DNA of 39,022 nt from Planctomycetota bacterium (GTDB lineage Bacteria; Planctomycetota; PLA2; JAEUHO01), in contig JAJDEM010000366.1 of assembly GCA_029259795.1 (NCBI GenBank), positions 1 to 39,022 of the forward strand, written 5' to 3'. This document shows, in pieces, positions 23,477-39,022 of the stretch (positions are counted from its first letter, which is position 1; every line of letters begins with the position of its first letter). The notes beneath the pieces were generated by a model. The model searched no databases, was not told the DNA's origin, and saw only the letters and a program-made list of their open reading frames with translations. The position numbers and the translations under genes were made by a program.

Positions 23477-26400
23477 ATGCGGCGTGGACTCTGTAGCCTT
23501 CTGTTGATTCTCGCACTCGCTGCGCCCGCCCACGGCGAAGACGACCCCGCAAAGGAGCCCGCACCGGATCCGCGGCTCAGCCCCGAAGTCGTGGAGTCGA
23601 GGAAACTCGAACGCCAGACGGTCGCGCTGAATCAGAAGCAGAAGTTCCTGGAGGCCATTCCGCTAGCGCGCCGCGTCCTCGAACTGCGCCAACGCGTGCT
23701 GCCGCCGGGCGACGGGCTGATGGGGAGTGCCCACTTCAACCTGGGCATGGTGCTCAAGGGGCAAGGCCTCTATCGCGAAGCCCGGCAGCACCTGGAGAAG
23801 TCCCTGCAAATCATGGAGGCACTGCGTGGCAAGGACCACAAGGTGGTCGCTGAAGATCTCGCGGCCCTCGCGCAAGTGCTTGCGAAGACCGGTGACTTGC
23901 AGGGGGCGAAGGCTGCGTTCATCCGAGCGATCGCCATCCAAACCACGTCGATTGGTGGCGATCATCCAGAGACTCTCGCAACGAAGCAGCGCTTTGGACT
24001 GCACCTTCTCGAGCTTGGCGCACTCGACCGCGCGCTGGCGTTGTTCCAGGAAGTCGAGGCTGCCCAGCGAAAGAAGCACGGCGACAGCCACCCTGAGGTT
24101 GCGTCCGCACTGAACAACCGCGGTCTCGTCCATGTCGAGCGTGGGGAGTTCGAAGCGGCCGTGGCGCTGGCGGAGCAGGCCCTCGCGATCACCGAAGCCA
24201 ACTTCGGCGCCAAGCACCCCGAGGTCGCGATCTCACTGGCCAATCTCGGCCAGATTCTGGTGGATCAGGGGGCATACAGCGAGGCCGAGCGGGTCCTGAA
24301 GCGGTCCTTGGCTGTGCTCGTCGAAGCCCTGGGTCCGGCGCATTTGTATGTGGGCATCCTCAACGGGCGCGTGGGAACCGTCGCCCTCCGCCAGCGTCGA
24401 TTTGGCGACGCGGAGCGCCACGCGCGGCTGGCGCGCAAGATCGTCGAGGAAGTCCAGGGGACGGACACGGCCGCAGCCGCAAAGATCCGCAGCAACCTCG
24501 GCGTCATGCTCGTCCACGCGGGCAAGGCGGAGGAGGCCCTTCCCCTGTTCGAGGAGTCGCGCAAGATCTACGAACGCGACCTGGGGAAGGAGCATCCGGA
24601 CGTTGCCGGTGCCGACTACAACCTCGGCTTCGCGCTTTCCAAACTCAAGCGGCATGCGCCGGCAGCCCTCGCCCTGCGTCGGAGTCTCGAGGGGCGCAAG
24701 GCAGCGTACGGCCCCCAGCATCCCCTGGTTGCAGCCGCAGCGTTGTCCCTCGCCGATGCACTCGCGGAGACGGGCAAGCATGCGGAAGCCAAGCAGCTCT
24801 ATCTGGAAGCGCTCGCCTCCCATGAAGCGCGCCTCACACGGCGCCTCTCGACCCTGACGTCATCCGAGGCACGCAGCATGGTCCATGCTGCCTGGGGTTC
24901 GGTGCGCGGATGGCTGCGCATCGCACCCAAGCTGGGAGAGACCGGCTACGACGTCGTGTTGCGGTTTCGCGGCCTGGCGGCGCGGGCCGTCATGGAGCAG
25001 CGCCGCACGGCACGCATCGTCGGACGCGGCGACCCCGCCAAGCTGGAGGCCCTGCGAGAAGCGGAGAGTCGCATCGCCGTGATCGCATCGACGCTTCCGC
25101 CGCGCGAGCCCAAGAAGACGCGAGCGTCTCGTCGCGCACTCTGGCGCAAGACGTACGCCGACGCCGTGGCCGCGCGAGACGCGCTGTGGCGCGAGCTCGA
25201 GAAGAAGCATGCCGCACTCGGGACGGCAAGGGCCCGGATCCGCGTCAATCTCAGTGCCATCCGGTCGGCCCTGCGGGACGATGCCGCCGTGGTGGACATC
25301 GTTCGTGTTGGCAAGCACTACATGGCTTGGGTGTACCGGCGGACCGGCGACGTCTCTCGCGTCGACCTGGGTGACGCAGCCAAGATCGACGAGGCGGGTC
25401 AGCTCTTTGCCGAGTTCGCGTCCGACCCGGGAGTCCAGGTAACAGAGAAGTCGTGGCGCGACGCAGCGCAGGCACTCCATGGCCTCGTGTGGGCGCCCCT
25501 GGCCGCGCGCCTTGACGAGGGTGTCCGGGTCGTCTACCTCGTGCCGGATTCCGCCCTCGCGACCGTGCCGATCGGCGCCCTGCCTGGCCACGGCAAGGCC
25601 ACCTACCTCATGGACCAGTTCGACCTCCGCTTCCTGACGACACCGCAAGACCTCGTCGCGCGCGACTTCAAGGTGCGCAAGCGCGAGGGCGTGCTGGTAG
25701 TCGGCGGCGTGGACTACGACAACGCCGCCCCGCCAAAGGGCTCCGAGAAGGAGGCCGCGACCACGCCGGTCCGCCCGCGGGCAAAGCGCACGTTCCTGGC
25801 CCTGCCCGGCGCCGCTGCCGAGGCCAAGGCCGTTCGCGCTTCCGCGAGCGGGACGGTTGAACTCCTTCGCGGCGCAGCGGCAACGGAGGCTGCCGTCGCG
25901 CGGCACGCCGAATCGGCGCGAACCCTGCACATTGCTACGCATGGATTCGTTCGGACCGATGTGATGCGCGGACTGCGGCCCGGGGACGCGAAACAGGAGT
26001 GGCTCGGTGGCAGCGCCGAACGCCGCTTGGCCTCGGGGCACGACCCCCTGCTCCTCGCAGGGCTTGCGCTCGCGGGCGCCAACGTTCACGACGGTGGCGG
26101 CACAGACGACGGCATCATGACCGCGCTTGAAGTGTCGGGGCTTGACCTTGACGGTGTCGATCTGGTCGTGCTGTCTGCTTGCGAGACAGCCCTCGGGCTG
26201 CCGACCGCGGGAAACGGCGTCATCGGGCTCGTCCAAGCGTTCCATGCGGCCGGCGCGCAACAAGTCGTCGGAAGCCAGTGGCTGGTCGACGACGAGGCGA
26301 CCCGCCTTCTCATGACCGCGCTCTACAAGCATCTACGGCCCGGCTCGGACGGCGCCCGAACGAACGTCGGTTCCGCATTGCGAGAGGCCCAGCGACTTGT

Positions 26401-26482
26401 GAGAGCCCGCCCGCGCTGGAGTCACCCCTTCTACTGGGCGGCTTGGACTGCGTGGGGAGCGCCTCCAGCCAGCAGTCGATAG
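23477..26482 (+). CDS. Exported TPR-CHAT protein (TPR array plus CHAT cysteine peptidase domain)
   Basis: 1001 residues; GGGGAG precedes the ATG. It has a signal peptide (GLCSLLLILALAAPAHG). Residues about 75-450 hold seven to eight kinesin-light-chain-type TPRs of about 42 residues, each with a phrase such as HPEVASALNNRGLVHVERGEF or HPDVAGADYNLGFALSKLKR. Residues about 450-640 are a helical linker. Residues about 660-995 are a CHAT domain, a caspase-like peptidase fold: strand LHIATHG with catalytic His822 and LVVLSACETALG with catalytic Cys902, then VVGSQWLVDDEATRLLM and the closing HPFYWAAWTAWG. Both catalytic residues are present. TPR-CHAT proteins act as proteases regulated by partner binding (for example with the type III-E CRISPR effector), but no Cas gene is here. 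Most Planctomycetota examples are uncharacterised. Confidence 0.95.
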   Translation: MRRGLCSLLLILALAAPAHGEDDPAKEPAPDPRLSPEVVESRKLERQTVALNQKQKFLEAIPLARRVLELRQRVLPPGDGLMGSAHFNLGMVLKGQGLYREARQHLEKSLQIMEALRGKDHKVVAEDLAALAQVLAKTGDLQGAKAAFIRAIAIQTTSIGGDHPETLATKQRFGLHLLELGALDRALALFQEVEAAQRKKHGDSHPEVASALNNRGLVHVERGEFEAAVALAEQALAITEANFGAKHPEVAISLANLGQILVDQGAYSEAERVLKRSLAVLVEALGPAHLYVGILNGRVGTVALRQRRFGDAERHARLARKIVEEVQGTDTAAAAKIRSNLGVMLVHAGKAEEALPLFEESRKIYERDLGKEHPDVAGADYNLGFALSKLKRHAPAALALRRSLEGRKAAYGPQHPLVAAAALSLADALAETGKHAEAKQLYLEALASHEARLTRRLSTLTSSEARSMVHAAWGSVRGWLRIAPKLGETGYDVVLRFRGLAARAVMEQRRTARIVGRGDPAKLEALREAESRIAVIASTLPPREPKKTRASRRALWRKTYADAVAARDALWRELEKKHAALGTARARIRVNLSAIRSALRDDAAVVDIVRVGKHYMAWVYRRTGDVSRVDLGDAAKIDEAGQLFAEFASDPGVQVTEKSWRDAAQALHGLVWAPLAARLDEGVRVVYLVPDSALATVPIGALPGHGKATYLMDQFDLRFLTTPQDLVARDFKVRKREGVLVVGGVDYDNAAPPKGSEKEAATTPVRPRAKRTFLALPGAAAEAKAVRASASGTVELLRGAAATEAAVARHAESARTLHIATHGFVRTDVMRGLRPGDAKQEWLGGSAERRLASGHDPLLLAGLALAGANVHDGGGTDDGIMTALEVSGLDLDGVDLVVLSACETALGLPTAGNGVIGLVQAFHAAGAQQVVGSQWLVDDEATRLLMTALYKHLRPGSDGARTNVGSALREAQRLVRARPRWSHPFYWAAWTAWGAPPASSR

Positions 26483-30603: not shown

Positions 30604-30673
30604 GTACGGTACGCGGGCAGTACTCATGGCTCTCCAGCACCAGAAATCCATGAGAAGGGCCCCTACTCCGTAC
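30604..30673. repeat. Palindromic repeat family I, copy R1
   Basis: Outer arms GTACGG (30604-30609) and CCGTAC (30668-30673) enclose inner arms TCATGG (30624-30629) and CCATGA (30648-30653). The spacing from outer to inner arm (20 bp) and across the inner loop (24 bp from arm start to arm start) is repeated almost exactly in R2 and R3. It sits just upstream of the small membrane protein gene at 30701. Confidence 0.65.
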
Positions 30674-30700
30674 TCAGAACCACGCAGGGGAGGACTCGGT

Positions 30701-31207
30701 ATGCTGGCCGCCATGAGCCGACCCCAGACGAGAGCCCCGCATCAGCGTCGCCTCCGCCCACCGGCCACCGTGACCGCGGCGGGACTGCTTGATCTTCTCT
30801 ACGGCGCCGCCGGTCTGTGGTTTGGCATCGCCCTGCTCTCCATGGACGACATGGGACGCTGGGCGGAGCGACCCGAGTGGCTGCGCCGGAACCTGCGTGC
30901 GATCGACACGGAGCTCACCGTCATCGCGTGGGTTCTGATCCTCACAGCGCTGGCCGCTGTGGCCCTCGGCCTGCAGCTGGTGCGCAGCTCAGCGAAAGCG
31001 CGCACGGCGCAGCGCTTCAACGCATCCGTTGCACTCGCCGCCGGCGTATTCCCGATGTGGTTGTTCGGGGTGAGTTGGACGATGGGACTCGTTGCGGCAC
31101 TCAACGTGGCAATCCTTCTCATGATCGAGTCGCCCTCCGCGCGGAGTTGGTGGCGCACGCGCGGCGGCCCTCCCCCACTGGACACGGCCCCCAGCAACCC
31201 CAGTTGA
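30701..31207 (+). CDS. Small polytopic membrane protein, unknown function
   Basis: 168 residues from the ATG at 30701, chosen for its GGGGAGG site; ATG at 30713 is an alternative. After a basic N-terminus there are four membrane helices: about 25-45 (AAGLLDLLYGAAGLWFGIALL), 70-92 (VIAWVLILTALAAVALGLQLV), 107-126 and 127-145 (FPMWLFGVSWTMGLVAALNVAILLM). No motif points to a function. It is placed between two copies (R1 and R2) of the palindromic repeat, as if inserted into or framed by them. Confidence 0.75.
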   Translation: MLAAMSRPQTRAPHQRRLRPPATVTAAGLLDLLYGAAGLWFGIALLSMDDMGRWAERPEWLRRNLRAIDTELTVIAWVLILTALAAVALGLQLVRSSAKARTAQRFNASVALAAGVFPMWLFGVSWTMGLVAALNVAILLMIESPSARSWWRTRGGPPPLDTAPSNPS

Positions 31208-31213
31208 CTTGGG

Positions 31214-31286
31214 GAGTACCGAGCCCGTGCCGCCGTCATGGACTTCCCGCGCCAGAAATGCATGAGAAGCGCCCGACTCGGCACTC
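31214..31286. repeat. Palindromic repeat family I, copy R2
   Basis: Outer arms GAGTACCGAG (31214-31223) and CTCGGCACTC (31277-31286) pair at 9 of 10 positions. Inner elements are TCATGG (31236-31241) and GCATGA (31260-31265). Compared with R1 and R3 one outer pair is swapped from G-C to C-G on both arms, a compensatory change. It starts 6 bp after the stop codon of the small membrane protein. Confidence 0.65.
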
Positions 31287-31345: not shown

Positions 31346-31406
31346 TACCCTTTGGACGGGCTCCGTATCTCTCGACACGCACGGACACTTGCACAGGAAG
31401 CCGGCT

Positions 31407-33296
31407 ATGAACCAGGACGCGGCAGGCCAGATCGACACGCTGCTCAACCGAGGCGACGTGTTCGAAGCCTACGAGGCCGCACGCGAGGCCCTCATCGACG
31501 ATCCGAGGAGCCAGCCCCTGCGAGAGCGTCTTGCGCGCGCGCTGATCCGCGCAGGCGCCGAGACCGAAGCGCTCGACCTGCTCGCCGCTCTCCTCGAGGA
31601 GGGGCACGCGAGCGGCGAGGTCCTCGGACTCGAGGCCAGCACCCGAAAGAGCAGGGCGCTCGCAAGCGCGGATCCCGACGTACGACGCGATGGACTGGCG
31701 AGGGCGCTGGACCGCTATGAGCAGGCCCGCACGGCGTTCCCCGAAGACTACTGGTTCGGAGTAAACGTCGCGACGCTCGCATTCGTCCTCGGTGAGCCGG
31801 AGCGTGCCCGGGAGTGCGCCCGTGCGCTGCTGCCGCAACTCGCCTCGCACCTGGCCGACGACGCCTGGAAGCGCCGTGGATGGGCTCTCGGCACCGAGGG
31901 CGAGGCGCGACTCGTCCTGGGAGATGAGGAAGGCGCCATCGAGGCGTACGGACGCTTCCGCGACCTCACGGCTGCGAACGCGGCGTGGGAGATGCGCGCC
32001 TCGGCTCTGCGCAACGCGCGCTTGCTGCTCCACGCGGAGCCGCCGCTTGCGCGTGTCGAGGTCGACGCAGCTCGTATCGAGGCGTTGCTTCAGACGCCGC
32101 CCGTCGCGATCGGGGCGGGGCACATGATCGACGCACCGGGACGCGTCGCGGAGCGGTTCCCGGCCACATTGCGGCCGGCCGCGCGGGTGGTCATCGAGGA
32201 GTTTGTGGCCCGCCACGGGGTCAGCCAGGGCTACGCGTGCTTGGCACGCGGCACGGACACCCTGTTTCACGAGGTGCTCAGCGAACGGGGCGTGCGCCGC
32301 TTCGCGATGGTGCCCTACCGCGCCGAGGCCTTCGTCGCGGACAGCGTCGCAGACCACGAGGACGCGAGCTGGGTGGACCGGTTCCAGGCCCTCTGGAGGG
32401 GCGCCGACAATCGGTGCACCGCTTCGCGCTACCGCTTCGCCTGGGACTCGCTCTGCTACGAGTTCGCCAACGAGGTGCTGACGGGCCTCGCACTGCTGGA
32501 GGCCGAGGCTCTCGGCACTGAAGTCGTTGGATTCGCGCTCTGGGACGGCAAGGCCGGAGACGGCCAAGGCGGCGCCGAGTCCATCGTGCGACTTTGGCGC
32601 GACCGCGCGGCCCCGATCGACGTTGAACTCATCAGCCCGGAGGACCTGGCCGCCGGTCGCCTGCAGGCGCAGCCCTGCATCGACGCACGAACGCCGCCGG
32701 ACTCGCAGCCGCCGGATTCAGAGCCGCTGGACCCGCAGTCGCTGGACCCGCAGCGTGCCGAGGTCATGGCCCTGTTGTTCGCAGACGCCCGGGGCTTCGG
32801 CAAGCTGGACGAAGTGGGCAACGAGGTCTTCGCGACCCAGTTCCTGACGCTCCTCGCGAAGGTGATCCAACGCCATGACGAGCACATCTTCGAGCGCAAC
32901 ACGTGGGGCGACGCCGTCTTCCTTGCCATGACCGATGTCGAAGCCGCGGGTCATCTTGCGCTCGACCTCTGCAGCACCATCGTCGCGGCCCGACCCGAGC
33001 TCATCGCGGCAGGCCTGCCTCCAGAGTTGGACCTCCGGGTTGCCCTGCACGCCGCTCCGGTGCGAGTGCTGTTCGACCCGATCCGTGATCAGCCACGCGT
33101 CTCGGGCGCGCAGATCAGCGAGGCCGCGCGTATCGAGCCGATCACGCCGCCGGGCCATGTCTATGCCAGTCAGTCCTTCGCGGCTCTCAGCCGCGCACGC
33201 GAGGCCACTGGCTTCTCCTGTCGGTACGTTGGCCAGACCGAGCTCGCCAAGAACTACGGACGCGAGCCGCTCTACATCGTCGAGCAACGCACGTAG
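31407..33296 (+). CDS. TPR / SLOG-like / class III nucleotide cyclase-like protein
   Basis: 629 residues from the ATG at 31407 (AGGAAG ahead). Residues 5-235 are helical TPR-like repeats; FPEDYWFGVNVATLAFVLGE (111-130) resembles the TPR-S/TRAFs-binding type region found in conflict-related signalling proteins. Residues about 240-410 look like a Rossmann-type SLOG-like nucleotide-binding domain (YACLARGTDTLFHEVLSERG at 276-294, VVGFALWDGKAGDGQGG at 373-389). After a Pro/Asp/Ser-rich linker (428-450), residues 452-629 match a class III adenylate/guanylate cyclase domain: Asp460 in LLFADARGFG and Asp502 in NTWGDAVFLAM, both metal-binding positions kept. It may sense or make a nucleotide signal; activity is not certain. 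No signal peptide. A strong hairpin follows the stop codon. Confidence 0.82.
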   Translation: MNQDAAGQIDTLLNRGDVFEAYEAAREALIDDPRSQPLRERLARALIRAGAETEALDLLAALLEEGHASGEVLGLEASTRKSRALASADPDVRRDGLARALDRYEQARTAFPEDYWFGVNVATLAFVLGEPERARECARALLPQLASHLADDAWKRRGWALGTEGEARLVLGDEEGAIEAYGRFRDLTAANAAWEMRASALRNARLLLHAEPPLARVEVDAARIEALLQTPPVAIGAGHMIDAPGRVAERFPATLRPAARVVIEEFVARHGVSQGYACLARGTDTLFHEVLSERGVRRFAMVPYRAEAFVADSVADHEDASWVDRFQALWRGADNRCTASRYRFAWDSLCYEFANEVLTGLALLEAEALGTEVVGFALWDGKAGDGQGGAESIVRLWRDRAAPIDVELISPEDLAAGRLQAQPCIDARTPPDSQPPDSEPLDPQSLDPQRAEVMALLFADARGFGKLDEVGNEVFATQFLTLLAKVIQRHDEHIFERNTWGDAVFLAMTDVEAAGHLALDLCSTIVAARPELIAAGLPPELDLRVALHAAPVRVLFDPIRDQPRVSGAQISEAARIEPITPPGHVYASQSFAALSRAREATGFSCRYVGQTELAKNYGREPLYIVEQRT

Positions 33297-33329: not shown

Positions 33330-33407
33330 GTACGGAGGCGCGGAGCACGGGCCATCGTCATGGATTTCCCGAACCGGCTATCCATGAGAAGGGCCCCGGC
33401 CCCGTAC
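33330..33407. repeat. Palindromic repeat family I, copy R3
   Basis: Outer arms GTACGG (33330-33335) and CCGTAC (33402-33407); inner arms TCATGGAT (33358-33365) and ATCCATGA (33380-33387), a perfect 8-bp pair. The left arm is followed by AGGCG, as in the array at 38066-38212. It lies in the convergent gap between the cyclase-like and 911-residue genes. Confidence 0.65.
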
Positions 33408-33521: not shown

Positions 33522-36257
33522 CTAGGCTGCGGCATAGCGGCCGAGGTAGTCCTGCTCGGCCACATCCAAGTCGCCCGCGCACTCCGCAGCTACGATCCTG
33601 GCACGCAGTTCTGAAAGATCTGCAGGAAGATCCTCGGCCTTCGCGACCACCCTGGGGTCTGGCAGTAGGGCCGTCAACGTGAGTTCACTCCACCACCGCA
33701 GGAACGACGCGTCGTCGCCAGCAGCATGGGCACGGGCGTCATGTAGTCGCCACGCCGTCGTGCCCAACGCCTCGCGCAGGACTTCATCGTGGCCCTCGAC
33801 GAGGGCTACGGCGCGCGCGTAACCCAATGCGCAGAGGGGGTCGAGTCGGCCGTCAAGCCGAGCGACGTCCAGCCAGGCTTGGCGAACTGCCTCAAGTCCC
33901 TCGTACCGCGCTTCCGCGGGCATCCGACCAAGGCGCTCTCGCTCAGCCCAAGCCAGAGCATACGCCACCCACGTGCTGCCGGGGAAACGGCGCCGGGCAT
34001 GCCGAAGCAGGTCGAGAGCCTCACCGAGCCCCTCACGATCAACCATGGCCAGTACCACCCCCCCTTGGCCGGCTGCCTGCGAGCTGGCCTCGGCGACGGC
34101 CAAGAGCGGCGCGATGCGCCTTCGAGCTTGGTCGCGAACCTCACCCGGATGTCCTCGCAAGGAGGCGCCGTGGAGACGGCGAGCCCACGCACGGAGCATG
34201 GGGCCATCGGCTAGGAGGGTGTCCAGATGGCTACGGTCGGTCACGGGCCGCGCCACGACTTCGTTCATGGCTTCCTCCTCCGACTCGCGCGCCTGCTTCG
34301 CACCATCCTCCGAGATGACGGCGTCCGTATCGCCCGCCAGCTTGGCACCATCCTCAGAGACGACGGCGTCCGTGTCGGTCGCCGGGCTCGCACGTTCCCG
34401 TGTCCGTTGCGCTTTTTCCGGCGGAGTCTGAATGCCCGGCGCCTCTTTCGGCCCTTGAATCTTGCGCTGCAACTTCATGAGGATCTTCTTGACGGCGTCA
34501 GCCTCATCAATCCGGTGCGCTTGCGTAAGCACTGACGCAAGCAACTCCCAAGCGGGCACGCTGCGCGGGCTCACTTGGGTCGCCTGCAGGGCCGCCTCAA
34601 TCGCCTCGTCGAGCTCGCCCATCTGGGCACGCAAACCGCTGAGGGTGACCCATGCGACCAGCTTGTCCGCGGTCGGCAACTGGGTGGCCTGCACAGCCGC
34701 GCTGACGGCCTCATCCATCTGGGCTGCGTCCCGGTGAGCCTTGGCGCGGACGCACCATGCGACGACATCTTGGGGGAACATGCGCGTGGCTTGAATGGCT
34801 GCCTGCACGGCCTCTAATCTCAGGTTGGCGTTGCCGAGCGCCTTGGTCAGGACGCTCCACGAGCCAACATGATCTGGGAATCGTCTGGTTGCCCGCTTCG
34901 CAGCCTCAACGGCCTCGCGGTGCTGCCCCGCTTCGCTCATTGCGCTCACAAGCGTCGTCCAAATGTTCTCGTTGTCCGGGAATCGGCGTACCGCCTCACC
35001 TGCGACGTCCACGGCCTCAGACTGTCGTCCCCCAGAACTGAGGACCGCGGCCAGGGTGTTCCAAGCAACGCCGTTGTTGGGGAATCTCCGTGTGGTCTCC
35101 CAGAGCACAGATGTGGCCTTGCCCAGTTCCCCCTGCGCTATCAAGACATTAGCCAAGATGGTCCACGAGTAGGGGTCCCATGGATCGTACTTGCGGGCAA
35201 GGTGAGCCCAATCCAGCGCGAGTTGCGGCCGCGCAGCGGCGACACGTGATGCGAAAGAACATGCGGACCGGGTGACGTTGAAGGCGTCCCCGGAGTAGTC
35301 CGCGTACAGCGCCTGTTCCCGGAGGAGAATTCGAGCGGACTCCAGGGCGCTGTCGACATCGCGTCCGAGCGCCTGTGCGATCTGCTTCGACCGCGGCCCC
35401 CAATCCGGAGCTCGCCGTATGTCCCACTGTCGCGACCGAGCCGCCCCCGCACCGGCCGGCTCCAGTACCTTGATCCACTTTGAGACCTGGGTCTCGGCAA
35501 TGTGGTCCGCCTCGTGCCAGAAGGCACGCCAACGCTTCGGGGAGGGCGCCCCGGCCATGGCGCCCCGCGCTGCCACCAGCCACTCTGCCTTGGCTCGGTC
35601 CGCGCGGAGCCAGCCTTCGTTCGCACGCCGCTGCAGGCCTTCCGCAAGGCGGATCAGACCGTGCCCGACATGCTCCGGAAAGGCCCCGCCAGAAGGCATG
35701 AACCGGAGACCGACGACGCCGTAGCGCCCGCGGTACCAGGGTTCCTCCGGCGGCAGCCCGCAGAGACGCAACCAATGGCTCCGAAGGTCGAGGCTCTCTT
35801 GATGGCGCGCCAGCGCGAACCATGTCGCACCGACCGGATCTCGCGGCCTCCCTTCGACCAAGGCATCCAGATAACCAGCGTCGTCAAGAAAGCGGGTACA
35901 GAGGGCGTTGGCGCTGTTTCCCAGCCCATCAGCCAGGCCGATCAACTCACCGACCTGACACCAAGCACGCGCAATCACAGGCGCACTGCCATCGTCGCGA
36001 CTGTAGCCCCAGAAGTGGTTCACCCAGTCGGCCAACGCGTGGTCTACGAAGGCTACGAACTCACGCTGTCCCGCGAACACTGTCAACCACCGAGCAAGCA
36101 CGTTTCGCGGTTCGGAGGGCGCCAGGAGCCCGAGCTCCGCTCGACCGAGAAACAGGTCGTCCAGGGCGACCACCGGATTTTCGGCGAAGCCCCGAAGCCA
36201 GCTTGGCACTTTACGGCCGCCGAAGAGACGGTCTATGTCCAACTTCGGGGCTGTCAT
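33522..36257 (-). CDS. 911-aa TPR protein with N-terminal HEADH motif, unknown function
   Basis: A large soluble protein without signal peptide. The N-terminal about 340 residues are an unrecognised helical domain containing FWHEADHIAE (His248-Glu249-x-x-His252), a candidate zinc-protease HExxH motif; a third ligand cannot be placed. Residues 345-598 are six or seven 34-residue TPRs (phrases such as RFPNNGVAWNTLAAVL and RFPDNENIWTTLVSAM), with WTILANVLIAQGELGKATSVL first. A charged linker at about 600-665 contains a 15-residue tandem duplication (TDAVVSEDGAKLAGD repeated). The C-terminal 250 residues are helical again. Its ATG overlaps the stop of the 350-residue gene (ATGA), so the two are translated as a pair. 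By eye the region is a little less GC-rich than the window's core genes. Confidence 0.8.
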   Translation of the reverse strand: MTAPKLDIDRLFGGRKVPSWLRGFAENPVVALDDLFLGRAELGLLAPSEPRNVLARWLTVFAGQREFVAFVDHALADWVNHFWGYSRDDGSAPVIARAWCQVGELIGLADGLGNSANALCTRFLDDAGYLDALVEGRPRDPVGATWFALARHQESLDLRSHWLRLCGLPPEEPWYRGRYGVVGLRFMPSGGAFPEHVGHGLIRLAEGLQRRANEGWLRADRAKAEWLVAARGAMAGAPSPKRWRAFWHEADHIAETQVSKWIKVLEPAGAGAARSRQWDIRRAPDWGPRSKQIAQALGRDVDSALESARILLREQALYADYSGDAFNVTRSACSFASRVAAARPQLALDWAHLARKYDPWDPYSWTILANVLIAQGELGKATSVLWETTRRFPNNGVAWNTLAAVLSSGGRQSEAVDVAGEAVRRFPDNENIWTTLVSAMSEAGQHREAVEAAKRATRRFPDHVGSWSVLTKALGNANLRLEAVQAAIQATRMFPQDVVAWCVRAKAHRDAAQMDEAVSAAVQATQLPTADKLVAWVTLSGLRAQMGELDEAIEAALQATQVSPRSVPAWELLASVLTQAHRIDEADAVKKILMKLQRKIQGPKEAPGIQTPPEKAQRTRERASPATDTDAVVSEDGAKLAGDTDAVISEDGAKQARESEEEAMNEVVARPVTDRSHLDTLLADGPMLRAWARRLHGASLRGHPGEVRDQARRRIAPLLAVAEASSQAAGQGGVVLAMVDREGLGEALDLLRHARRRFPGSTWVAYALAWAERERLGRMPAEARYEGLEAVRQAWLDVARLDGRLDPLCALGYARAVALVEGHDEVLREALGTTAWRLHDARAHAAGDDASFLRWWSELTLTALLPDPRVVAKAEDLPADLSELRARIVAAECAGDLDVAEQDYLGRYAAA
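34301..34390 (-). repeat. 45-bp in-frame tandem duplication in the TPR gene
   Basis: Two copies of a 45-bp unit (starts at 34301 and 34346, each beginning GCACCATCCTC on the plus strand) encode the TDAVxSEDGAK duplication in the linker of the 911-residue protein. The few differences between copies make it look like a fairly recent slippage duplication. Confidence 0.7.
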
Positions 36258-37306
36258 GTCAACAAGTCCCCGTCGGTCTCAACCGCGAAGTCGTGACGGC
36301 CAGATGCCTCGCGCACCTCAAGGATGTGCAGGCCGCGCGCGTCGGCAAGTCGGGCCTGCGAGACAGGCAACCGCAAGACTCCCACCCGGAAGAGGTGTGA
36401 GCGCGTCCACTGCACTGTGGGATGGAGTACCTCGCGGCGGTGCGCGACGGACGGATCCTGCGTGTCTCCCAAGTGGATCGTGTAACCCGTCCATTCCCCG
36501 ACAGGTGACGGGACGAAAGCCGCCGACAGACCTCCGTCGAGTACGCAGGGCGGGACGAGCGGACGAACGGCCCCGCTACCGGGCGTCGTGGGAATCAGTC
36601 GAACCGGATAGCGGAATACGAACACCGGAATGGTCTCACCCGGCGCCATCGGAGCGTAGTGCAGGAGACCGAGGCGATTCCGCAGGCGATCCGGCCAATC
36701 CGGAGCGTCGCCATCTGGTGCGTCACCGAAGAGGTCATCGGCGTCTTCAAAGAACCCCGCAAACACGGGTCGTCTATCCGCCAATCCTGCGAGGTCTGCC
36801 AGGACGCCGTCGAGCTCCTTCGCTGCAACGGAATCTCCGCCGAGACTGCGTTCGGCCGTCTTGAGCAGGTGGGCTGGCTCACCGTGACGCGAGATGGCCG
36901 CGATATCGGAGACTGGCATCATACGGATGAGGTAGCGCGGCGCATCAACCCGCGCAAAGGGGGACTCATCCCATCCCGACCGAAACGTGTCCGGCACTAG
37001 GTGAGGATCGGAAGTGTCGAAGTGTGCGGGACTGGCCTGTTCATCCCCCGACACAAACACCTCGCGCTCCAGATAGAGCTGATGGCGTGCTCGCCAAGTC
37101 GCGAGGTCGTTGGGCGTGCCCTGGTAGGTCGCGTAGGTTTCCCCACGAGCCAGCGAGACCCGCTCGTCCAGTTGGAAGTTCCTAGCTACAAATGCGCTCA
37201 TTTCTCGGTCTGGAGAACTCCGATCCTTTCCGATCGCGGAGAGGAGCTGATGGAACGCGCCCTTGTCGCAGAACACAGAGCGCCCCTTGTGGCTCAACGC
37301 TGCCAT
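36254..37306 (-). CDS. 350-aa protein of unknown family, coupled to the TPR protein
   Basis: 350 residues from the ATG at 37304-37306, chosen for its TTTGGAG site; a TTG four codons earlier is possible. No signal peptide. The N-terminal half is mixed (SVFCDKGAFHQLLSAIG, DLATWRARHQLYLEREVFVSGDE). The C-terminal part is strand-rich (ETIPVFVFRYPVRLIPT, EWTGYTIHLGDTQD, HLFRVGVLRLPVSQARL, GLHILEVREASG). No motif is recognised. The stop codon overlaps the ATG of the 911-residue TPR gene, so the two products probably act together, for example as a dedicated partner or as effector and scaffold. Codon and base use look slightly less GC-biased than in the core genes, consistent with acquired DNA. Confidence 0.8.
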   Translation of the reverse strand: MAALSHKGRSVFCDKGAFHQLLSAIGKDRSSPDREMSAFVARNFQLDERVSLARGETYATYQGTPNDLATWRARHQLYLEREVFVSGDEQASPAHFDTSDPHLVPDTFRSGWDESPFARVDAPRYLIRMMPVSDIAAISRHGEPAHLLKTAERSLGGDSVAAKELDGVLADLAGLADRRPVFAGFFEDADDLFGDAPDGDAPDWPDRLRNRLGLLHYAPMAPGETIPVFVFRYPVRLIPTTPGSGAVRPLVPPCVLDGGLSAAFVPSPVGEWTGYTIHLGDTQDPSVAHRREVLHPTVQWTRSHLFRVGVLRLPVSQARLADARGLHILEVREASGRHDFAVETDGDLLT

Positions 37307-37439
37307 GACTGGCTCCAAATCGTCTTGCTTGGCCCATTCTCGAGTGGGGGCTGGGCCGGAGCATATGAGCTCCGTGCCGCCCTGCCCACTGCGGCCCCCC
37401 TAGGATCGCAGAAGGGTACCGTGCCGCCCAACGATCTCA

Positions 37440-38247: not shown

Positions 38248-39022
38248 CTACCGCGCCGCGCCCCAGAGGACCCACGCGGCCCAGTAGTAGGGATGCTTCC
38301 ACTTCGAGTGCGCGCGAACGTGCTCCTGCGCTTGGCGCAGCGCCTCGGCCGCAGCGAGCCCGCCCTTGCCGCCCTTCGGCTGCCACAGTTCGTAGAAGCG
38401 CACCATCAGCGCCTGGGTGGCGTCGTCGTCAACCTGCCAGAGCGAACCCATCACGCGCGGGGACCCCGCCATCTGAAAGCCCTGTACCAGACCGACCACA
38501 CCCTCGCCCGCCTCGGCGGTACCTAGCGCCGTCTGGCAGGCCGACAGCACCACGAGCTCGACGCTGTCGAGGTCGAGCTGCGAAGCCTCCAGCGCCGTGA
38601 GGATCCCATCGTCGCCGGTACCGCCGCGCCGGGTGTTCGCTCCCGCCAAGGCCAGCCCGGCGAGCAGCATCGGATCGTGTCCCTGGCCTAGCTGGCGCTC
38701 GGCGTCGGCACCGAGCCACACCCGATCGCGAGACTTGCGCGCAAGACCTCGCATCAGGTCCTCCCGTACGAACCCGTGCGTCGCAAGATGCAAGAACCGC
38801 ACGCCGCCAACCGCCTCGCGTAGCGCAGCCTCCGTGGCCTGCGTGCCGGATAGGGTCTTCGTCGAGGCCCCCAGCAGGGCGGCGATCGCCGCGGCTTCGG
38901 CCTTCGTACCCGGCAGGGGTACGAACGAACCACCGCGTGGAGCAGGTTGCCGGGGCGCGGAGGCGATCGGGCGATCTGCCGCCGCATCGGTCGCCGGCGC
39001 GCGCGCGCTGCGGTAGTCGACA
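38248..39022 (-). CDS. CHAT-domain protein, C-terminal part (5' end off the window); probable TPR-CHAT family
   Basis: About 257 residues from the right edge to TAG at 38248-38250. The visible part is a CHAT domain very like that of the 1001-residue protein at 23477: LHLATHG with the catalytic His codon at 38776-38778, HDPMLLAGLALAGAN, then LVVLSACQTALG with the catalytic Cys, MGSLWQVDDDATQALM and the end HPYYWAAWVLWGAAR. Both catalytic residues are present. At the left a PLPGTKAEAAAIAALLG helix matches the start of the same domain. The N-terminal TPR part is presumed to lie beyond the edge. Its downstream neighbours on the same strand are the small ORFs and the 350/911 pair, beyond the repeat array. 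Confidence 0.92.
   Translation of the reverse strand, partial: VDYRSARAPATDAAADRPIASAPRQPAPRGGSFVPLPGTKAEAAAIAALLGASTKTLSGTQATEAALREAVGGVRFLHLATHGFVREDLMRGLARKSRDRVWLGADAERQLGQGHDPMLLAGLALAGANTRRGGTGDDGILTALEASQLDLDSVELVVLSACQTALGTAEAGEGVVGLVQGFQMAGSPRVMGSLWQVDDDATQALMVRFYELWQPKGGKGGLAAAEALRQAQEHVRAHSKWKHPYYWAAWVLWGAAR

Follow-up and report, generated by a model that had tools for sequence, protein, structure and literature searches.

A TPR-S/SLOG/class III cyclase-like protein in a planctomycete genome: domain architecture, neighbors of its relatives and a candidate role in nucleotide signaling

Does a bacterial protein that joins a repeat-built sensor region to two nucleotide-associated domains produce a nucleotide messenger, or does it detect one? 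The question was raised by an open reading frame of 629 residues (31407-33296; ATG start, TAG stop) in a 39,022-nucleotide stretch of DNA from a Planctomycetota bacterium (contig JAJDEM010000366.1, assembly GCA_029259795.1); this whole stretch is referred to as the window. The gene was identified from its reading frame, Pfam matches and an AlphaFold2 model as encoding a TPR-S/SLOG/class III cyclase-like protein. It and all of its parts lie on the forward strand, as does the sequence AGGAAG (31395-31400), read 6 nt before the ATG. The genome that contains the window comprises 4.29 Mb in 417 contigs and is 89% complete. The answer that we favor, and consider somewhat probable, is that the protein is a sensor-gated nucleotide cyclase of a defense-like signaling system.

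Domain architecture and active site

AlphaFold2 was used to model the whole protein from 25 alignment rows (predicted local distance difference test score, pLDDT, 89.1; predicted template-modeling score, pTM, 0.90). In the model, TPR helices are followed by a Rossmann domain, a low-confidence linker (residues 423-441, 32673-32729; pLDDT < 50) and a cyclase domain, in that order. The same domain order was found in 24 other rows, which are 23-38% identical to the window protein; because the relatives share it, a chance arrangement is ruled out. All fold comparisons were second looks at Foldseek matches to PDB structures. The initial annotation had proposed a sensor, a nucleotide-binding Rossmann domain (SLOG-like by sequence pattern) and a class III cyclase domain in one protein, and both profiles and fold bore this out; the domains, the fold, the retained metal Asp and Arg residues described below and the family itself are established by computation. 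NCBIfam gave only three matches to the protein, all far under their cut-offs.

The TPR solenoid occupies residues 2-208 (31410-32030) and has eleven helices in the model. The initial annotation had suggested profile searches for TPR-S and SLOG domains, and for the former, Pfam returned a match to PF20308 at residues 21-125 (31467-31781; E = 3.2e-14) that scored 53.8 bits against a gathering cut-off of 27.6 and was seen again in the genome search. Other TPR models of Pfam likewise match the protein, and TPR-S was found in all 25 members of the family alignment. The window protein begins at its TPR-S part, and Pfam detected no RyR domain in it. Among ten N-terminal pieces of relatives, an N-terminal RyR domain was above the Pfam cut-off in seven (loci L044, L052, L036, L046, L040, L055 and L047) and under it in L042, L038 and L048; RyR also occurs in L080 and L081.

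The SLOG domain (residues 218-420, 32058-32666) was assigned by its fold match to YpsA. Residues 230-420 of the whole model were superposed on YpsA (2nx2) with Z 19.3, a root-mean-square deviation (rmsd) of 2.3 and 160 aligned residues, and a separate model of this domain (pLDDT 90.6) again returned YpsA first (Z 19.5, rmsd 2.5, 163 aligned). The next matches (best Z 12.1) were DprA, ShosA, LOG, molybdenum-cofactor carriers and TRPM2, at Z values of ca. 9-12; judged from their titles, rows 1-34 of the fold list appear to be of the SLOG type, and the first plainly different fold is row 35 (Z 6.9). The earlier SLOG-like assignment thus gained structural backing, with YpsA as the closest fold. 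In the family alignment, G282-T283-D284 (32250-32258) corresponds to the GxD motif of the YpsA clade, with D284 invariant in 21 rows and G282 kept in at least 90%, and G388-G389-A390 (32568-32576) stands where many relatives have GGT. A GxD/E motif is described as characterizing the YpsA clade within the SLOG superfamily (PMC6459960).

The class III cyclase-like domain (residues 451-627, 32757-33287) was assigned by family profile and fold. A profile built from 15 family rows matched 53 sequences of solved structures at E ≤ 0.01 (best 3et6, 1.9e-13), all of them named or known as cyclases. Fold comparison gave CyaB (3r5g; Z 21.5, rmsd 2.2, 177 aligned), Cya2 (Z 20.9) and Rv1900c (Z 20.1). On its own, the window protein had no Pfam cyclase match at E ≤ 1, and the genome search did not recover it with that model at E ≤ 0.001; 19 of the 25 family members reached the Pfam cyclase model at E ≤ 0.1. 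Alignment confirmed Asp460 (32784-32786) and Asp502 (32910-32912) at the two metal positions named in the initial annotation, and placed Arg575 at the position of the transition-state Arg. Of the 37 members, 26 retain this triad; the other 11 belong to Bacteroidota (8) and Fermentibacterota (3). Departures of the window copy were counted at columns 90% conserved among the other triad members, and amounted to two of 26 in the cyclase domain (S465G and G550A; 9th most deviant of 26) and one of 20 in the SLOG domain (8th most deviant of 20).

The residues expected to select the base differ from the usual ones. Asn498 occupies the Lys/Glu place and is followed by Trp500 (together 32898-32906), which, two residues on, would lie on the same strand face; Arg564 occupies the Asp/Cys place, Ser571 that of the transition-state Asn, and these two together with Arg575 span 33096-33131 (all from the alignment). 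Among the 26 triad members, 16 have Asn at the Lys/Glu position and 6 have Glu there, with one case each of Gln, Ser, Ala and Lys, and the Asp/Cys position is variable across the family. In 21 triad rows, position 500 is Trp in 14, and the transition-state Asn position holds Ser (12), Thr (5), Asn (3) or Val (1). With Asn498/Arg564 in place of the canonical pair, the protein was therefore filed neither as an adenylate nor as a guanylate cyclase. For EaPycC, a cytidylate cyclase, joint replacement of F100, R142 and Q144 is reported to abolish activity (PMC11224242). By counting, R142 and Q144, which lie four and two residues before the metal-binding D146, fall at positions 498 and 500, and we therefore infer a non-standard base.

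Are these departures signs of decay? The initial annotation had regarded missing substrate- and transition-state-binding residues as indicative of a degenerate domain. The canonical residues for base selection are indeed missing, as is the transition-state Asn, but the metal Asp residues and Arg575 are kept in the 26 triad members, and, as far as sequence can tell, the missing residues do not show the domain to be degenerate. The non-canonical residues may be read as unusual specificity rather than decay, because the relatives differ at these positions too and because published cyclases lack that Asn: Ma1120 is reported with Ala and Rv1900c with His in its place, and a change of the Ala of Ma1120 to Asn is described as greatly lowering one activity and abolishing another (PMC4215837, PMC4886424).

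Neighbors and distribution of the family

Genes in the flanks of the relatives were predicted with a rough codon-usage caller and searched for cyclic nucleotide-binding domains (CNBD) and TIR domains using profiles whose input sequences came from the loci themselves; expectations were taken from the same genomes' own domain density. For CNBD, 21 of the 26 intact loci were tested, the fragments L045 and L069, as well as L080-L082, being left out; L051, which is cut off before the cyclase, was excluded from the intact group although a CNBD gene is present. Eight CNBD genes were found at six of the 21 loci (L041, L042, L043, L044, L052 with three, and L055), and PF00027 matches all eight in the genome search, which did not include L061; five of the eight were covered by a separate Pfam scan as well. 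At the density of PF00027 in the 21 genomes (168 places in 86.5 Mb, from counts per genome), 0.56 CNBD genes and 0.55 loci would be expected in the 247 kb of flanks (P = 8.9e-6 for six or more loci; P = 3.1e-6 when Parasphingopyxis was counted once). The TIR test covered 24 loci, namely these 21 and L080-L082. PF13676 (TIR_2), with 87 places in 106 Mb of the 24 genomes, occurs in the flanks of four loci (L052, L054, L055 and L081), against 0.27 places expected (P = 9.9e-5), and in three of 21 when counted once per lineage (P = 5.7e-4). A TIR gene at L042 was matched by hmmscan, had no place in the genome search and was not counted. The enrichment of both kinds of neighbor is established by computation, and the CNBD genes strengthen the earlier suggestion of the protein as a possible producer or detector of a nucleotide messenger.

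Three gene clusters deserve mention. At L044, the order is cyclase, ABC exporter, CNBD; at L052, ABC-CNBD, Crp-like, RyR/TPR-S/cyclase, a CNBD-containing gene and TIR; and at L055, ABC exporter, CNBD, RyR/TPR-S/cyclase and TIR/WD40. STAND or DUF4062 proteins adjoin L042 and L046 (Pfam) and L012 (by eye only). Loci with a degenerate cyclase have no CNBD gene nearby (0 in 12); this was considered as a mark that separates them from the others, and dropped because only 0.19 would be expected for the eight loci testable against their genomes.

The family is sparse; judged by record titles, its members that keep the whole triad are spread over about ten phyla: Planctomycetota, Verrucomicrobia, Armatimonadetes, Acidobacteria, Chloroflexota, Pseudomonadota (gamma, and alpha with the cultured Parasphingopyxis), Methylomirabilota, Nitrospinota, Nitrospirae and Deltaproteobacteria/Myxococcota. 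The window sequence alone found no relative among the species genomes, and a three-row alignment led to 45 loci. A single-sequence search matched six of 59 genomes, a count that includes the source genome and two weak matches (2e-4 and 9e-4); the three-row profile matched 15 of 392 genomes of the phylum at E ≤ 1e-10, again including its own and several by one domain only. One of six genomes of the taxonomic family has the gene, and relatives were found in G010 (same family) and G012 (same order). In a tree of 37 rows, planctomycete rows fall in more than one place; L010, L011, L018 and the window share a branch (support 97/98) from which L020 and L021 are excluded. The pattern in which SLOG motifs and triad are never both lost (0 of 37, with six having lost the former and 11 the latter) was judged weak because kinship was uncorrected and the 11 triad-less members come from two phyla. 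A scan of viral contigs found no relative. Twenty-two records of a phage collection were matched; the ten matches listed lie in the RyR part of the query and cover at most 12% of it; a plasmid collection gave partial matches in five records (12-23% of the query). One of the plasmid matches, from Tolypothrix, is a C-terminal fragment that lacks both metal Asp and lies beside a TIR gene; it was not counted.

Several variants were noted in passing. A Caballeronia sp. SBC2 plasmid, a named isolate, carries a relative (L086, 4768-6534) with TPR, a SLOG domain that appears eroded by eye, and cyclase. A Rhizobium beringeri plasmid encodes a cyclase with an NTWGD motif followed by a stretch that is NUDIX-like by eye (L087, 5980-7053), and an annotated NUDIX gene adjoins it. 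The relative at L012 (5511-10405, reverse strand) extends over two frames and, past its cyclase, appears by eye to have a second TPR-S and SLOG unit; it is flanked by two genes that, also by eye, start like DUF4062 proteins. At L013 (5127-6971), TPR-S is joined to a SLOG-looking "GVTGHR...EGADR...GGT" stretch. In Mucilaginibacter (L077, 7977-9849), a frame that matches SLOG only, and no Pfam family, directly precedes a TPR-S frame. Beside the G012 relative, a divergent gene (L010, 7628-8404, forward strand) encodes, by eye, a classical SLOG-like stretch and then a TIR- or deoxyribohydrolase-like one.

Seven other proteins of the window were scanned. They include a TPR/CHAT (caspase-like) protein (23477-26482, forward strand; Pfam), a second, truncated CHAT protein at the window edge (38248-39021, reverse strand; Pfam) and a 911-residue TPR protein that faces the focal gene (33522-36257, reverse strand; Pfam). 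The last is overlapped by a gene for a 354-residue protein (36254-37318, reverse strand), which also faces the focal gene and for which Pfam, NCBIfam and PADLOC all gave nothing at E ≤ 1. Of the other three proteins, two match families only weakly or in part, and the third has a carboxypeptidase-regulatory-like stretch. An imperfect palindrome of 60-75 bp, with the core TCATGG...CATGA, was read in three copies (30604-30673, 31216-31274 and 33330-33407), so placed that both a small frame (30626-31207) and the focal gene are bracketed. Within one mismatch, the core has no other copy in the assembled genome; diverged partial copies lie on C292 and C237. Integron cassette sites were considered for these palindromes and set aside, given the diverged copies elsewhere and the finding that two of the three fold no better than shuffles (29, 68 and 3 of 200 shuffles, respectively, fold equally well).

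Proposed mechanism and competing explanations

If the protein is a sensor-gated cyclase, the TPR-S region, with RyR in many relatives, would sense a cue of stress or invasion, or a partner protein. The YpsA-like SLOG domain may bind a nucleotide-derived ligand and gate the enzyme. The class III domain would dimerize head to tail and cyclize a nucleoside triphosphate by means of Asp460, Asp502 and Arg575, with the base probably selected by something other than the usual Lys/Asp or Glu/Cys pair. A CNBD protein would read the resulting cyclic nucleotide; some relatives have such a protein encoded in the neighborhood, together with ABC exporters, a Crp-type regulator and TIR or STAND proteins. In the window's own genome, such a receptor would be encoded outside the window. 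PF00027 has no place on the window's contig, so that no CNBD effector gene stands beside the cyclase; elsewhere in the genome, CNBD was found in a 148-residue frame on C334 and, at two weak places, in one frame on C113. By elimination only, and in a genome that is 89% complete, the leading candidate for the receptor is the C334 protein. The same genome has six other cyclase places and one other TPR-S gene.

A number of observations weigh against this proposal. No CNBD or TIR profile matched at E ≤ 1e-4 within the 39-kb window, and PADLOC had no match to the focal protein and named no system. Among the relatives, 15 of the 21 triad loci had no CNBD gene, and 20 of the 24 had no TIR_2 place, in the stretch examined, some of the CNBD stretches being short. 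For SLOG, the suggested profile search came back empty: no Pfam family was matched in that region at E ≤ 1, and the family profile matched no solved chain at E ≤ 10, and the assignment therefore comes from fold and motif. In its TPR part, the window protein departs at five of 21 conserved columns (third most deviant of 26), and in the tree its row has a long branch, with 1.66 changes per column, and joins another long row. The canonical base-selecting pair is absent, and, since 11 of 37 members lack the triad, the protein can work without it.

These last two points bear directly on the idea that the cyclase domain is a non-catalytic module for nucleotide binding or dimerization, the protein detecting a messenger and its SLOG or TPR part giving the output. 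It would accommodate the replaced transition-state Asn and base-selecting residues, as well as the 11 members in which the triad was lost and the three SLOG motifs examined are kept or nearly so; catalytic inactivity is described for several cyclic-nucleotide cyclase domains that occur in fusion with vWA components of conflict systems (PMC7159879). Both metal Asp residues and Arg575 are nonetheless present in all 26 members outside Bacteroidota and Fermentibacterota, the cyclases Ma1120 and Rv1900c are reported without the Asn (PMC4215837, PMC4886424), and the CNBD neighbors point to a product that is read. We consider this idea unlikely. The persistence of the SLOG motifs in the same 11 members could also mean that SLOG is the main enzyme, with LOG-like or NAD-related nucleotide chemistry, and the cyclase domain an accessory regulator; SLOG proteins have been predicted to be sensors or nucleotide-processing enzymes (PMC6459960). 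The reverse is seen as well, however, in that six of the 26 triad members have eroded SLOG motifs and two of these (L052 and L055) lie beside CNBD genes, and the closest SLOG fold is YpsA rather than LOG. A SLOG enzyme is, in our judgment, quite improbable.

A different objection concerns the role rather than the chemistry. The protein could be a housekeeping or developmental regulator acting through cyclic nucleotides, with its TIR, STAND and CHAT neighbors reflecting genomes that are rich in them. The window neighbors (CHAT, TPR and unnamed proteins), the silence of PADLOC and the Parasphingopyxis members, which by eye sit among ordinary genes, agree with such a role. It fits poorly with the patchy presence of the gene, which was not found in any of the five other genomes of the genus (70-92% complete) and occurs in one of six of the taxonomic family, and with the TIR enrichment, which was measured against the same genomes' own density. 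We rate it as rather unlikely. The sensor-gated cyclase with a defense-like role thus stays the reading that we prefer.

Relation to known signaling systems

All of the modules are known, and modular nucleotide-signaling proteins of bacterial conflict are a known kind. The combination of four modules with CNBD and TIR neighbors was not named in the titles and abstract openings searched, a search outside which the two likeliest sources lay. In a more far-reaching reading, which we consider rather unlikely, ca. ten bacterial phyla would share a second-messenger immune system new to the literature, with the RyR/TPR-S/SLOG/cyclase proteins as its central enzyme. In such a system, one polypeptide would convert a nucleotide-derived cue into a cyclic nucleotide with an unusual base (through the Asn/Trp pocket), which would act on CNBD-controlled ABC exporters or regulators and on TIR effectors; lineages would have kept the SLOG or the cyclase half when the other decayed, and the sensor would share ancestry with the core of animal ASK1. 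If this were true, a one-protein link from nucleotide sensing (SLOG, RyR) to cyclic-nucleotide output would be added to bacterial alarm systems, a directly testable set of genes (cyclase, CNBD/ABC and TIR) would be at hand in several phyla, and the ASK1 stress kinases of animals would, through their TPR core, be tied to a bacterial signaling family.

The possible animal connection comes from the sensor. A TPR-region profile of the family (19 rows) matches the TPR (TRAF-binding) region of ASK1/MAP3K5 (5ulm) at E = 2.8e-7 over ca. 150 residues, and the Pfam model MAP3K_TRAF_bd matches 21 of the 25 family members at E ≤ 0.1; designed TPR and PPR proteins outscore ASK1 in the profile search. ASK1 carries a kinase where the family has SLOG and cyclase. 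YpsA of B. subtilis (2nx2) shares the fold and the GxD motif of the SLOG domain, which differs in being set within a TPR-S/cyclase protein and in having 10-12% sequence identity to it; YpsA is not known to catalyze a reaction. The class III cyclases CyaB (3r5g), Cya2 (2w01), Rv1900c (1ybu) and Ma1120 (4wp9) are matched in fold at Z 20.0-21.5 and in the two metal Asp residues and the transition-state Arg, and are unlike the window protein at Asn498/Arg564, at Ser571 and at Trp500 beside the pocket. The PADLOC model of PycC, the cyclase of the Pycsar system, did not match the window protein at E ≤ 1 and matched one of 25 members weakly (0.013). Pycsar, in which PycC works with PycTIR or PycTM, resembles the present family in its class III cyclase and, in the relatives, in the CNBD and TIR candidate partners; the family is set apart from it by the large TPR-S/SLOG part and by TIR and CNBD being encoded in separate genes at the loci examined.
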